This document shows positions 14,925-25,711 of a DNA stretch of 40,353 nt, piece by piece; position 1 is the first letter of the stretch; the number at the start of each line of letters is the position of its first letter. The stretch comes from a virus. The notes beneath the pieces were generated by a model. It was not told the DNA's origin and searched no databases. It saw only the letters and a list, made by a program, of their open reading frames with translations. Position numbers and translations under genes: made by a program. The stretch lies in the IMG/VR virus record IMGVR_UViG_3300032242_002490, positions 1 through 40,353 of that record, one strand, 5' to 3'.

Positions 14925-16793
14925 TTAATATCTTCTAGTTGATGATTTTACCGTTCTATTTTTAGTAGATTCATCATTCACTGGACTAGCCGGCGTAAGT
15001 TCTGTTATCTGTTGTGTTGAACCTGACGTATTGTTTTGTACCACGGCAGAAGTTGATGGATTATCCTTACTTCTTGGAGCAGTCAACATATCTTCATTTT
15101 CTTTTGATCTATCGTTAATGTATTTACCGATAAAATCAGGCGTGACAGGTCTCAAAAAAGGAATATCCATTTTCTTAACGACATCTGCTGCTTTTGCGGA
15201 AGCTTCATCTGAAGCTGCTTTATCCGCTTTTTGTTTTGCGATTGCAACAGCTTTTAATTTTAACTGTTCTCTTAGTTTAGGTATTTTTTTAAGTTCTTGT
15301 TCGAGGCTTGTTTTTATTTTTTCATCTTTACTTAATTCCCAATCCATTTCCATTTCTGGAATCTTTTCTGCAGCGCCTGTTGTATAACTGGCTGCCTCTA
15401 TTTGATCTTGATGTGCAACTTCTTCAATAATAGTTACGGCTTTGAGTAAAGGTTTTGTATCTCCTGTCAATGCAGCATATTCTAATGATTTGTCTAAGTA
15501 CTCATTTTCATTCTTAACTTGTTTAACTTTTGAATATACTTGTAGAGCTGCAAGAAGAGGCCCAGCCGCTTCAGAAGCTATTCCTAAAGTCCTAGAAACA
15601 AGAGCAATTCCAGGAGAAAACTCTTCAAGTGGAGTTAATATTCTTGTTGCTGTTACTCCAACTTTAGATGATGCGACTGTTGGTCTAGGTGTTGCAGTTG
15701 AAAATCCCTTAACTTCTGTATAACTTCCAGTTGTACCTTTTCCCATCTCAATAGTAGTACCACCAGTAGGTGCTGGCGTTAATTTGGGTGCGTTTGCCGT
15801 TGCACTTACAGGAGGTTCTAAAACAGGCGCGCCTTTACTTGGCAAAGCAGGAGTTCTTTCTGGTGCTGGTAATGCTTTTGTTCCAGTGGGAGCTGCTGAA
15901 GTAGGCTCAGGCGCTGGTAATGCTTTTGTTCCAGAAGGAGCTGAAGGTGTTTCTGGTGCCGGCAAACGCGGCACTGGTTCAGTCACCGGCGGTTTAACTT
16001 CAGGAATACTCGGTAGTCCTTTAGGAAATCTTTTAAGTAGATTTCTTAAGAATCTGTATAATAATATATCTTCTAGGCTATCTTTAATAAAGTTCCATAT
16101 AGGATTACCACCACCGCCACCCATATTGTTGGCTAATTCTTTTAAGTTTTTTTCATTTTCTTCAACTATACTTCTGAAAGCCTTTCGAAGAGCATCTAAA
16201 AATTCTTTATGTCTACGTTCATCATCTACTTTTCTCTGTTGACGAAAATCATCTTCTAGTTCTTTATCTAATTTTTTCTTGTCGAAAGAATCTTGAAGTA
16301 TTGTATAAATTTTTGATAAAACGTCTGATACCGAATCTCCTTTTCTGACTCGGGTGGCTCGTCCTGTTTGTTTGACCTTAAGAGTTTTTTGTACGTCTTG
16401 ACTCTCTTCTTCGCCTTCTCTTATTCTTTTGGCTTTTTCTTTTTCTTCTGTTTCTTGTTTGAGTTGTTCGGTACTCTTAATATTCGTATCATTTACTTCG
16501 GATACTTTTTCTTTTTTGACCTTTTTTCCTTTTCCAGTCTCATCCATGTTAAGACCGAGAATATTGGCAAGAATCCTAGTATCAATTTTTCCACCGGTCA
16601 ATACTTTGGCAATAAAAAGAATGTTAAACTTCTCTTTCATTCCTTTGGCATGACCTTGTATCTTTTGGTCAATAGCCAATTTGAGAGCTTCGCCAATGCT
16701 CTCGTTGGTCATTAATTTAGAAGCTATTAGATCAGAAAGACTTGAGTTTCTGACTGCTCTTGCTTCTGCACTTGATAGTTTTTTATCAGCCAT
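14925..16793 (-). CDS. Tape-measure-like structural protein, second paralog
   Basis: The 622-residue protein shares its plan with the 595-residue neighbour: an N-terminal helical region ending in a Lys-rich patch (GKGKKVKKEK near 87-96), a second helical block with ERRHKEFLDALRKAF, then a region rich in Pro, Ala and Thr (about 260-350) and a charged C-terminal part. It has no lysozyme-like domain. Place (last gene of the tube-chaperone-long-protein operon), length and helical content suggest a tape-measure or tape-measure-associated protein that spans the tail tube. It overlaps its paralog by 8 bases. The role is inferred from order, not from a recognised domain. Confidence 0.5.
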   Translation of the reverse strand: MADKKLSSAEARAVRNSSLSDLIASKLMTNESIGEALKLAIDQKIQGHAKGMKEKFNILFIAKVLTGGKIDTRILANILGLNMDETGKGKKVKKEKVSEVNDTNIKSTEQLKQETEEKEKAKRIREGEEESQDVQKTLKVKQTGRATRVRKGDSVSDVLSKIYTILQDSFDKKKLDKELEDDFRQQRKVDDERRHKEFLDALRKAFRSIVEENEKNLKELANNMGGGGGNPIWNFIKDSLEDILLYRFLRNLLKRFPKGLPSIPEVKPPVTEPVPRLPAPETPSAPSGTKALPAPEPTSAAPTGTKALPAPERTPALPSKGAPVLEPPVSATANAPKLTPAPTGGTTIEMGKGTTGSYTEVKGFSTATPRPTVASSKVGVTATRILTPLEEFSPGIALVSRTLGIASEAAGPLLAALQVYSKVKQVKNENEYLDKSLEYAALTGDTKPLLKAVTIIEEVAHQDQIEAASYTTGAAEKIPEMEMDWELSKDEKIKTSLEQELKKIPKLREQLKLKAVAIAKQKADKAASDEASAKAADVVKKMDIPFLRPVTPDFIGKYINDRSKENEDMLTAPRSKDNPSTSAVVQNNTSGSTQQITELTPASPVNDESTKNRTVKSSTRRY

Positions 16794-18573
16794 TTAAAGA
16801 AACTCTGTTTACGGACAATTGTAATGGATCCTGTGATGGATTTATAAAAGATGATTTGTTTATGTTACTCTGATTGTATGTATTGTTAACGGAAACAAAT
16901 AACATATGAGCGCCTTGTTGTATGTTCTCTTTCTTTTCCAACAGAACATTTGACGATATCATATTAATCACTTTACCAATTTGCGGAGCTGCCAATGGAT
17001 TTGCGGCAGGTGTCATATCAACAGAAGCAGAAACAACTTCTGTTTTAGGAACAGATATAACAGAACTAGGCAAAGGCGAGGCTGTAATCTTTTTATCAAC
17101 TTTTGGCACCGAGGCAATCTTCGTTGTCTCCGTTTTTGGTGCGGGTGTTTTTGGTGTCAAAACTGGCATAACGGCCGCAGCCGATTCTTTCGGTGGCTCA
17201 ACTTTTGGTGGTTCGGCTTTTGGTGATTCTGCTTTTGCTGGAATTGACGATGCCGTTGTGGTCGCAGGCGTTAAAGTTGAAGTATTAGATGCAACTTCTG
17301 TCACGCCACTAGATTGTGGTTTTTCTGGTACTTGGGCCAGTTTTGTATCTTCGGCAGAAGGAGTCTGTAATTTTTCTACTTTGCCTACTTTAAATCCTTC
17401 AATCTGTTTCATCGACGCCAGCATTTTGTCTTGTTGAGCTGGATTTAAATCGGACAATTTGGTATCAGGAGAAACTCCTACGGAACGAGAAACATTCGCA
17501 ATATACGTTGCTGTCGGATTCTCACTTGGTGGCGCATATTTGGAAATTGCCTGCGTGATTGTTAAGTACTTGTATGAATTAGTTTGAAATAACAGATCTT
17601 TTCTTGCCTTTTCTCCAGCCTCTAATGTTGGAAATACTGCAAATCCTCCGCTCTGCCCTATGGCACCGTGTTTTGTTGCAAAGGCACTTGGTCGAATATT
17701 TCCTGGATTGTTATTTCTCCAAGAAATTGTTCCGCCTTTTCTAACTTCATCACCAATAATCGTTTCTCGATTTTTGCCAGCCATGTTTTTATTATTTGGA
17801 GTTGAACTATCAGTAGGAGTATCACCCGCTATAGTTGATACAGCAGCGGCACCACCAACCACAACAGCAGCCGTACCAACCGCAGCAGCCGCGGCTCCAA
17901 CATCTCCTAATACAAATGTTTCAATTCCAGTTTTAGCAAGATCAAATACTTTCTTGATGGCAGAAACGACAATGTTATCTTCTTTTTTACCTGCAATATC
18001 TTTAAAAATTTTGTTGATGCGTTCTTTGCCAGCACCCTTTTCTTCTTTGACAACACCCCTTAGAACATCAAGTATTTCTTTATGTCGATGTTCTTTTAGT
18101 TCTTCTTCTTCTTTGTTAAAATCGGTTTTTAATTCCTGTTCTAACTTTTCATCTTCTATTATTTTTTGGTATAGTGGATATAATTTACCCAAAGCATCCG
18201 CAAAAGGTTCGTTCTTTCTTATAGGTCTGACTTGCGTATACGCCTTATCAACCTTGAGTGGGTTCTTTTTCTTTTTCTTACCAGAAGAAATACCAGAAAA
18301 GTATTCAATATCTTCCTCACTTCTACCCAACATTCTACCGACTAATACTACGGCAAGGGCTGAATCTCCGGTGATTCTTTTGACAATACTAAGTGGATCA
18401 AGAGATTCTCTATATCCGGTGAGGGTTGCTTTCGCCTTTTCTGAGATAGATTCTTTTAGTGCATCACCCAAAGATTGCTTTTCATCACCAACAAGTTTAC
18501 CGGCAATCTGATTAAGAAGGCCGGTTCCTCGTATACGTCTCGATTTTCTATATTCGGGTGATCTTGATTCCAT
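16786..18573 (-). CDS. Tape-measure-like protein with lysozyme-like domain
   Basis: The 595-residue protein has a helical N-terminal region (1-100, ending in a Lys run), a helical block 125-175 containing EHRHKEILDVL, an Ala/Val/Gly-rich hydrophobic stretch (about 224-250), and a domain at about 280-394 with WRNNNPGNIRPS and FAVFPTLEAGEKA. The NNPGNIR signature belongs to the phage 'structural protein P5' peptidoglycan-hydrolase-like domain. Proline-rich linkers follow. Its start shares a base with the end of the frameshift ORF upstream (TAATG), the usual arrangement for a tape measure behind a tail chaperone. T4 gp29 is of similar length. It may set tail length and open the cell wall during entry. 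Confidence 0.6.
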   Translation of the reverse strand: MESRSPEYRKSRRIRGTGLLNQIAGKLVGDEKQSLGDALKESISEKAKATLTGYRESLDPLSIVKRITGDSALAVVLVGRMLGRSEEDIEYFSGISSGKKKKKNPLKVDKAYTQVRPIRKNEPFADALGKLYPLYQKIIEDEKLEQELKTDFNKEEEELKEHRHKEILDVLRGVVKEEKGAGKERINKIFKDIAGKKEDNIVVSAIKKVFDLAKTGIETFVLGDVGAAAAAVGTAAVVVGGAAAVSTIAGDTPTDSSTPNNKNMAGKNRETIIGDEVRKGGTISWRNNNPGNIRPSAFATKHGAIGQSGGFAVFPTLEAGEKARKDLLFQTNSYKYLTITQAISKYAPPSENPTATYIANVSRSVGVSPDTKLSDLNPAQQDKMLASMKQIEGFKVGKVEKLQTPSAEDTKLAQVPEKPQSSGVTEVASNTSTLTPATTTASSIPAKAESPKAEPPKVEPPKESAAAVMPVLTPKTPAPKTETTKIASVPKVDKKITASPLPSSVISVPKTEVVSASVDMTPAANPLAAPQIGKVINMISSNVLLEKKENIQQGAHMLFVSVNNTYNQSNINKSSFINPSQDPLQLSVNRVSLNG

Positions 18574-19501
18574 TACCGTCTAGCCTTTCTCTCTGCGTTC
18601 TTTTGTTTGATCTTCTCATTTTCTTGTTCAATGTGTTGGATCAATAAAGTCACGTAGATATCGCGTTCCCACGGTATCATGTTTTCAAGTTCTGACAAAC
18701 TATACTTATGGTGCTGTATCAATGCAAAGTTTGTCGTGTAGTAATTACTCAGATTGTCATGACGAAAGGTTAGTCGAAAAAACTTTCTAGTCCCTCAAAT
18801 TGCACCGTATGCTCAAATCCGCATTTAGAACATTTAATGTCAACAGTCTTATTTAACTTTGGTAAATTCTCAAAAAATTCTTGTATCTTGTTAAATTGAA
18901 ACTTATTAAGAGATTCAAGAAATTCAATTAGTTCTTCTCTTGTACTATCTTTTGCATAAAAGGTTTGTTGGCCATCATAAATGCAATCAATAGAATCTAC
19001 CATCATCAAGAGAGCAATGTCTGCAATGTTATCTGTTTTAATATCACTGACTTCTTTAATTATTTTAAATTGTGGATATTTCAATTTAATTGATATTTTA
19101 TCATTTAACTGTACAATGTCTTTAATTTCCTTATCTCTGGTAACTTCAATCTTGAGCAAATCAATATCAGACTGCATAATGTTGCCGCATTTTTTATCTT
19201 CAACAATATTCTCGCAACGATACTTTGCAGAGACCACTTCACCAACTGATTTGGCTCTGAGGTGCAAGAAATAGTATTCAATATCTACAATTGGTAAACT
19301 ATCAATATTGACGCCTTCTGTCAAAGTACAATTATTCAATATCTGTTTGACATTGAGATTCATCGTCTCAAGGTCATTGGCTTCAAGAGCCATTAACAGG
19401 TTCTTTTGCTCTTTGACTAAGAACGGCCTAAAAGCAATATGCTTCTTTGATAGAGGCAGATCAATTTCATATACGGGCGAATCAATTTTTGGCAAAGCCA
19501 T
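18573..19501 (-). CDS. Probable -1 frameshift product of the gp26-like chaperone gene
   Basis: The gp26-like frame ends AGT TTT TTC GAC TAA. A -1 shift on TTTTTTC (18776-18782) would bypass this stop and add 67 residues, beginning RLTFRHDNLSNYY and containing HHKYSLSELENMIPWERDIY, ending at TAA 18573-18575; the fusion would be 309 residues. The added frame has no ATG before its middle. An SD-like GAGGGA lies about 8 bases before the slip site, as in dnaX. Lambda G/GT and other tail chaperones use the same device just before the tape-measure gene. The extension resembles gp51-type hub-assembly proteins, from memory. Frameshifting itself is not demonstrated. Confidence 0.7.
18770..19501 (-). 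CDS. 26: gp26-like baseplate/tail assembly protein
   Basis: The 243-residue protein fits the T4_baseplate (gp26) family: an N-terminal strand region with PLSKKHIAFRPFLVKEQKNLL, a possible zinc ribbon made of a C-x(n)-C pair (YRCENIVEDKKCGN) and CSKCG near the end, and the C-terminal FEGLESFF typical of the family. In T4 this protein belongs to baseplate hub assembly. Here it lies between tail tube and tape-measure-like genes, the place of a tail assembly chaperone. Its last codons hold a slippery sequence. Confidence 0.75.
   Translation of the reverse strand: MALPKIDSPVYEIDLPLSKKHIAFRPFLVKEQKNLLMALEANDLETMNLNVKQILNNCTLTEGVNIDSLPIVDIEYYFLHLRAKSVGEVVSAKYRCENIVEDKKCGNIMQSDIDLLKIEVTRDKEIKDIVQLNDKISIKLKYPQFKIIKEVSDIKTDNIADIALLMMVDSIDCIYDGQQTFYAKDSTREELIEFLESLNKFQFNKIQEFFENLPKLNKTVDIKCSKCGFEHTVQFEGLESFFD
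18776..18796 (-). promoter_or_regulatory. Programmed -1 frameshift signal
   Basis: On the minus strand GAGGGA (18796-18791) is followed 8 bases later by TTTTTTC (18782-18776), with the zero-frame stop TAA two codons on. The heptamer obeys the X XXY YYZ rule in the reading frame (T TTT TTC), and an internal SD 5' of a slip site is a known stimulator. No convincing downstream pseudoknot was seen by eye. Confidence 0.7.
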
Positions 19502-19530: not shown

Positions 19531-20127
19531 TTAGATTTTGGGTGGAACATCTGGTATATCAATTTTAAAAGGTGCAATGAGAGGCGGTTTAAACGATGAT
19601 ACTGCTAATGGTATACCAGGTCTGCGTGCTGATGATCCTGTTGTCCAATATGTATAAGCTAAAACTACGGTTAATTTATGATGTCCGTCTGAACTCCAAT
19701 CCAAATCTAATTGATTAACGGCAATTGGATAAGCGTCTATAAGATTTACAATGTATGATGGATTGTTTGATTGATCGTATTGCGTTATGACAACATCACT
19801 GACATAATTATCTTTGTAATTAAAATTAAAATTATTTGAATGAGATCCAACGGACATCAACCAATCATCAAAGAATTGTTTCTCTTGCATATTTTCGGAA
19901 ACAATAAAAGTTAAATTGATATCATTGTACGAATGTTGATATGGAAACTTTTCTATAGTTCCATATATTCTTTGATCGTGAGTTACAAGAGTTTTTCCAG
20001 GTAACTCAGCAGTTTCGCAGCTAAACGTCATAAAGCTAGACGCTCGTATAATTTGAACATCAAAACGACTTGGTCTAGCCAAATCGTTTATAAAGTTTGC
20101 CCTAAAATCGTTAATGCTACCTGCCAT
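19531..20127 (-). CDS. Tail tube family protein (gp19/gp54-like)
   Basis: The 198-residue protein has the features of the T4 gp19 tube family: RPSRFDVQI near the N-terminus, CETAELPGKTLVT, YNDINLTFIVSENMQEKQFFDDWL (about residues 68-90) and YIVNLIDAYPIAVNQLDLDWSS near the end. Tube proteins stack as hexamers to form the inner tail tube; gp54 in the same family starts the tube on the baseplate. Length favours gp19, whereas nearness to gp48 would favour gp54. It comes just before the chaperone gene in its operon. Confidence 0.7.
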   Translation of the reverse strand: MAGSINDFRANFINDLARPSRFDVQIIRASSFMTFSCETAELPGKTLVTHDQRIYGTIEKFPYQHSYNDINLTFIVSENMQEKQFFDDWLMSVGSHSNNFNFNYKDNYVSDVVITQYDQSNNPSYIVNLIDAYPIAVNQLDLDWSSDGHHKLTVVLAYTYWTTGSSARRPGIPLAVSSFKPPLIAPFKIDIPDVPPKI

Positions 20128-24673: not shown

Positions 24674-25711
24674 ATGGCAGATCCAGTAGTACCCAATTTA
24701 ACACCTGTTGATATTGCTCCTATAGTTATAGATACAGCCGCTTTGGCATCAAAAATTCCTGATTTTGGAGTTAACAATGCCAACTGGATAACAGTAAACG
24801 GAAAATTTTCTGTAACAAATACTCCAAATTCTGTATTCACTAGAATTGCACAAACATTAGGTGTGCCAACAACACCTCAGACAGCAAGAGGTGTATTAAC
24901 TGATTCTGCAATTGATTACATGAACAATAATCTTGTGCATAGTTGCGATTTCAATTTTTTGGTTAAATTGGATCTTGGATTGGGACCTTTATTTGAATTA
25001 TTTGCCGCAATACCCGATGCAATTAAAAAGGCAAAAAATTCAGCAGCCGAAGTATTATCTTATCTAGTCAAAGATTTTATGAAAGCAATATTTACGGCAC
25101 TTAAAGCACTTCAAGAAGGATTAAGTTTAGACGGAACCGGTTTAGTTTCTATAACAGTTAACAAAGTAAAACATTTGGTTGCTGATATTCAAGATATCGT
25201 AAATTTTATAGCGCAAGTGGTTGAAGATGTTATGTCTGTGGTTTACTTTATTCAAGATGTTGAGGCTTTAATTAAATGGATATTAAGTTTGCCTCAACAA
25301 ATAATTAATATGGTTATAGGTTGTTTGAATCAATTCAAAAATAGTTTAAATCAATCAATAAACCAAATCAAATCAATACCAGGTCAAGTTGAAGGCACAA
25401 TAACGCATACTATAGATTCAATAAAAGCTTCAGTTACTAATACTTTTCAAAGTACTATAAACGGAGTGCAGTCCAGTATTTCTTCCCGTAGTTCAAATCT
25501 TGACCCATCGTTAGCAGCTGCTATTAATAATACTATTAGTAATCCAAATTCTCCTAGTGCAGTGACAACATTGGGTACTTTAGGTACCGTTTTAGTTGAT
25601 GTAGTTCATAATAATAATACAAATAAATTATCGAGTGTTAATTCACAACCGCAAAACAATGTTCCTGCTAAAAATAGTAACAGCATTGGTAGTGGAAACG
25701 GTAACCCTTAA
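24674..25711 (+). CDS. Unknown helical structural protein
   Basis: The 345-residue protein has a soluble N-terminus, a long amphipathic helical middle (about 95-250, including FLVKLDLGLGPLFELFAAIPDAIKK and a strongly hydrophobic ALIKWILSLPQQIINMV) and a Ser/Asn-rich low-complexity tail. AGAGTTAAAAAAATGG gives a weak SD. It lies between OB-fold and spike genes of the hub, so it is probably a tail or hub component. It could be a membrane-active or tube-filling protein. I do not recognise a family. Confidence 0.55.
   Translation: MADPVVPNLTPVDIAPIVIDTAALASKIPDFGVNNANWITVNGKFSVTNTPNSVFTRIAQTLGVPTTPQTARGVLTDSAIDYMNNNLVHSCDFNFLVKLDLGLGPLFELFAAIPDAIKKAKNSAAEVLSYLVKDFMKAIFTALKALQEGLSLDGTGLVSITVNKVKHLVADIQDIVNFIAQVVEDVMSVVYFIQDVEALIKWILSLPQQIINMVIGCLNQFKNSLNQSINQIKSIPGQVEGTITHTIDSIKASVTNTFQSTINGVQSSISSRSSNLDPSLAAAINNTISNPNSPSAVTTLGTLGTVLVDVVHNNNTNKLSSVNSQPQNNVPAKNSNSIGSGNGNP

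Follow-up and report, generated by a model that had tools for sequence, protein, structure and literature searches.

Judged from very strong sequence evidence, a single gene of an uncultured, T4-related virus almost certainly yields two proteins, namely a short gp26 and, through a programmed -1 frameshift at the heptamer T_TTT_TTC, a gp26-gp51 fusion. Interpretation of gp26 and gp26-51 as a putative short and long pair of tail assembly chaperones in the style of lambda G/GT is supported. The initial annotation of this DNA had proposed the same lambda-type logic, which now draws support from a conserved in-phase site, the -1 frame and its extension, a stimulator, and selection acting on the -1 frame. 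Our analysis covered a window of 40,353 bases, the whole stretch of DNA taken from the record of this virus.

The genes of interest lie on the minus strand in the order head-closure gene, end-protector gene, tail tube gene, gp26-like gene, and then two large genes. The tail tube gene (19531..20127), directly upstream of the gp26-like gene, was recognized by its matches to PF06841 (E 1.8e-07) and phrog_45 (E 1.6e-38). The gp26-like gene itself (18770..19501) encodes a predicted short chaperone (TAC-N) of 243 aa, which is approximately 38-42% identical to the nearest records and matches both the full length of the Pfam T4_baseplate family PF12322 (E 1.4e-57, profile 3-218 of 219) and phrog_150 (E 5.2e-62). 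The large downstream gene (16786..18573, 595 aa) sits at the position of the lambda tape measure gene, and its product matches phrog_2276 (tape measure) and phrog_873 (endolysin), which overlap at one mid-protein stretch; it is a tape measure candidate by position, its identity not being proven. The two adjacent large genes at 14925-16793 and 16786-18573 form a tandem pair, alike in their N-terminal ~220 residues (26% identity, E 1e-16), and the upstream member carries a peptidoglycan-hydrolase-like stretch. A 345-aa protein encoded on the plus strand within the baseplate cluster (24674-25711) also showed weak matches to many tape-measure families (best E 7e-07), perhaps reflecting merely amphipathic composition.

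The 3' end of the gp26-like reading frame reads GAG GGA CTA GAA AGT TTT TTC GAC TAA. As initially annotated, the slippery heptamer TTTTTTC (18776..18782, minus strand) stands close to the zero-frame stop (TAA, 18770..18772) in the correct phase, T_TTT_TTC, across gp26 codons 241-242, and a Shine-Dalgarno (SD)-like GAGGGA (18791..18796) precedes it by 8 nt. The -1 frame was also found as described: it opens at CGA (18776), continues for 67 codons (18576..18776), and ends at a TAA (18573..18575) that forms a TAATG overlap with the start codon of the next gene, giving a predicted fusion of 309 aa. The claim that this frame has no early start codon held up to codon 19, where a TTG occurs (18722); the first ATG is codon 33. 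The gap of about 200 bases that had been described as empty apart from the extension is itself coding in the -1 frame. Heptamers of the form X_XXY_YYZ (Y = A or T) occur in phase 51 times in the window's 10,768 codons, and only two of them read beyond the stop of their own gene, TTTTTTC by 67 codons and one TTTAAAT by about 20, which makes the site more than a chance occurrence.

The extension corresponds to the C-terminal domain of gp51 (TAC-C). It matches phrog_634, the T4 gp51 family, with an E value of 1.6e-30 (profile 55-120 of 121), and tblastn matched it in 548 phage records. A further match, to the C-terminal region of the gp26 family phrog_150 (E 1.4e-08), suggests that some phrog_150 members were recorded as fusions.

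Comparing the gp26-like genes of related phages for a T-rich heptamer and a -1 extension, a check proposed with the initial annotation, showed that both are kept. All 81 close relatives (80 IMG/VR relatives fetched with gp26, plus the window) carry the heptamer and have gp51 in the -1 frame. In a non-redundant set of 170 loci drawn from 213 sequences, 145 have an in-phase site (TTTTTTC in 128, TTTTTTT in 16, and TTTTTTA in 1), and the 25 that do not are all T4-type or Ackermannviridae. Outside those two groups, the heptamer therefore lies in the overlap and in phase in 145 of 145 loci. Across 80 clusters, the T preceding the site and the TTT codon are invariant, while neighboring wobble positions vary freely; codon usage alone would produce this invariance with a probability of ~1e-21, a figure that is overstated because the clusters are related. 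The site, frame, extension, and stimulator occur together in Kyanoviridae, in Pelagibacter and Methylophilales phages, in Pseudomonas, Ochrobactrum, and Acidovorax phages, and in several Straboviridae (Schizotequatrovirus, Emmerichvirinae, and Cronobacter S13). Isolates with this arrangement include Kyanoviridae cyanophages, Pelagibacter phage Mosig, Methylophilales phage Melnitz-3, Vibrio D485 and phi-Grn1, Aeromonas AS-szw, Cronobacter S13, Pseudomonas pf16 and Astolliot, Ochrobactrum ORM_20, Acidovorax ACP17, and Pseudoalteromonas XG4. A scan of viral contigs with gp26 of Vibrio D485 returned no match. In 16 of the 145 loci (L083, 815-1546, and similar Pelagibacter-type loci), the distance from the slip codon to the gp26 stop is 30 nt rather than 6-12, which lengthens the tail of the short form by about 8 residues.

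Ackermannviridae and Vibrio phage K382 (L093, L098, L116-L133, L215, and L216) also have the gp51 domain in the -1 frame, yet they lack the canonical heptamer, and the site is instead NTT_TTC (ATT, GTT, or CTT, then TTC). Such a site would let the Phe tRNA slip, although re-pairing in the P site could not follow the standard pattern. Re-initiation at the gp26 stop is a possible explanation for this group, and some of its loci do have TAATG at the stop. Ahead of the first downstream ATG, the -1 frame of the Ackermann-type loci is under purifying selection, with a pN/pS of 0.10 over a stretch that includes one GTG. A tentative reading, to which we give somewhat less than even weight, is that in these phages the chaperone gene uses a non-canonical -1 shift involving a single tRNA; our literature search for an NTT_TTC single-tRNA shift in this chaperone gene found no description of one.

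Two kinds of potential stimulator were evaluated, with the caution that the clusters are related and the stimulator, folding, and selection figures are hence not independent tests. At the SD-like element, Gly is encoded by GGA or GGG in 49 of 79 clusters compared with 132 of 550 codons (24%) elsewhere in gp26, and Glu is encoded by GAG in 30 of 46 compared with 522 of 1750 (30%). In 60 of 80 clusters, pairing with the anti-SD was stronger than in synonymously resampled sequences. A modest, family-wide excess of RNA structure appears just downstream of the slip site (18690..18776 in this virus), where 80-nt windows starting from -20 to +20 of the slip codon have a mean folding z of -1.1 to -1.6, while most windows on either side lie at about -0.1 to -0.5. 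The z-score drops again near +200, at the start of the next gene. This is a mean tendency only, as the windows fold differently among relatives and no conserved downstream stem or hairpin was found.

The -1 frame is under purifying selection directly behind the slip site. Codons 3-18 after the slip have a pN/pS of 0.08 (283 pairs, locus set), and this stretch is mostly ahead of any usable start; in 53 of 80 clusters there is no ATG, GTG, or TTG within the first 14 codons of the frame. The core of the -1 frame has a pN/pS of 0.12, the same value as gp26's own tail. The +1 frame of the same stretch consists mostly of stops, with a pN/pS of 1.14 from only 5 usable pairs.

These data bear on the possibility that gp51 is a separate small gene, translated without frameshifting from an internal start (the TTG at 18722 here, an ATG in others). 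Many cyanophage GenBank records annotate gp51 from an internal ATG in just this way, and in most clusters the -1 frame contains an ATG at about codon 19 or 20. We rejected the internal start, however, because the -1 frame is selected ahead of it. The start positions also differ or are absent among relatives, no SD was seen before the TTG in the window sequence, and a separate gene would leave the invariant in-phase heptamer unexplained, all of which makes this explanation very improbable. It is likewise highly unlikely that transcriptional slippage on the T run produces mRNAs with a T lost or gained: a run of six T is the kind of sequence on which RNA polymerases can slip, but it is short for efficient slippage, and neither the codon phase nor an SD-like element at 8 nt would be needed, yet both are conserved. 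Translational coupling, in which ribosomes stop at the end of gp26 and restart nearby in the -1 frame, would fit the close overlap of the gp26 stop with that frame and the TAATG found at the stop in two Ackermann-type relatives (L093 and L215), but it is extremely unlikely given that the window and most relatives have no start codon at or near the stop and that it explains neither the heptamer nor the SD-like codon bias 8 nt upstream.

Programmed -1 frameshifting is thus the reading we favor, and from it we infer the slippage, the product ratio, the chaperone function, and the binding partners as follows. The ribosome would slip back one base at T_TTT_TTC near the end of the gp26-like gene, aided by the upstream SD-like GAGGGA and probably also by downstream RNA structure. 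Short gp26 (TAC-N) would be the abundant product, and the 309-aa gp26-gp51 fusion (TAC-NC) the less abundant one. If they act like lambda gpG/gpGT, the short form may coat the tape measure while the C-domain of the long form recruits tail tube subunits, and both forms would leave the finished tail. A structural model of gp26 (mean pLDDT 93) has as its top matches among solved structures 3fgx, 3klu (YqbN), 2ob9 (the HK97 tail assembly chaperone, Z 7.1), and 5ir0, with Z of 7.5-4.9; these are middling (Z < 8) and cover only about residues 1-96, and the next match falls to Z 2.7. The gp26 profile matched no sequence among solved structures, and Foldseek against the PDB gave no significant match. 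The fold matches and the upstream tail tube gene appear to fit a lambda G/GT-type chaperone, which is supportive but not decisive.

The principle of this frameshift in T4-like phages was already published in 2022. Vladimirov, Gautam and Davidson (2022, Virology 566:9-15) are cited in a passage of PMC12846349 for poly-T -1 signals in T4-like TAC-N genes, and in a passage of PMC10885494 for T4-like phages in which a short gene is accompanied by a fused long one, whereas an older review described the G-T frameshift as conserved "except T4" (PMC5009743). New here are an uncultured member, figures for the stimulator and for -1 frame selection, and, in Ackermannviridae, the non-canonical NTT_TTC site. 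Cyanophage gp51 had looked like a fragment of ~20% of the T4 length, and Aeh1 had seemed to be without gp51 (PMC3037559). The cyanophage "fragment" is explained if gp51 is the frameshifted tail of gp26, and frameshifting may also explain the apparent absence in Aeh1. Aeromonas AS-szw has the frameshift, and the gp51 "missing" from Aeh1 may have been overlooked in a similar way. The GenBank records we compared (L082-L101 and L214-L218) do not treat gp51 consistently: it is given as a separate internal-ATG gene, omitted, or only gp26 is annotated. Our results correct the annotation of many phage records in which gp51 is either absent or listed as a gene of its own.

A close parallel is lambda gpG/gpGT, where the short gene follows the tail tube gene and a -1 slip close to its end gives a short and a long product; the predicted scheme here is the same, and the tail tube gene precedes the chaperone gene as in the lambda V-G-T order. 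The lambda slip site differs from TTTTTTC, and the zero-frame protein of this virus is larger. Xu, Hendrix and Duda reportedly treated the lambda gpG/gpGT-type family in 2004. Neither lambda protein is found in the mature virion, and the mechanism has been summarized (PMC5009743). With regard to the stimulator, this virus resembles dnaX of Escherichia coli, in which an SD-like element lies about equally far 5' of a homopolymer slip heptamer. In dnaX, however, the shift occurs on A_AAA_AAG rather than TTTTTTC, it makes a shorter product, and it has a known, defined downstream stem, of which no counterpart was found here.

T4-type phages, which serve as a control, arrange the same domains differently. 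Their genes 26 and 51 lie on opposite strands; gene 26 contains no in-phase heptamer (its codons are such as TTC TTT), and gp51 is separate, in a single frame. Residues 11-203 of T4 gp51 (249 aa) are homologous to gp26 (hhalign E 7.3e-11), and its C-terminus matches the -1 extension (profile E 0.0037). In AlphaFold models of gp26 and gp51, helices and strands follow one another in almost identical order, and gp51 has additional helices at its C-terminus. T4-type gp51 is, by these comparisons, a gp26-like domain and a C-domain in one frame, and T4 therefore makes short and long forms from two genes. The abstract of the 2022 study reportedly names T4 genes 26 and 51. The idea in the initial annotation that these two genes descend from a frameshifted pair fits the homology over ~200 residues and at the C-terminus of gp51; in a tree of gp26 and the gp51 N-domain, the latter falls on a weakly supported branch of 2.3 changes, and the tree settles neither the T4 duplication point nor the direction of change. 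T4 gp51 is required for baseplate assembly and is absent from the particle (PMC3004832). In Tevenvirinae and Twarogvirinae, the short form has its homologue in gp26 and the whole long form in gp51. Our findings support the view proposed in 2022 that T4 holds as two genes, on opposite strands and without a slippery site, what relatives such as this virus make from one frameshifting gene.
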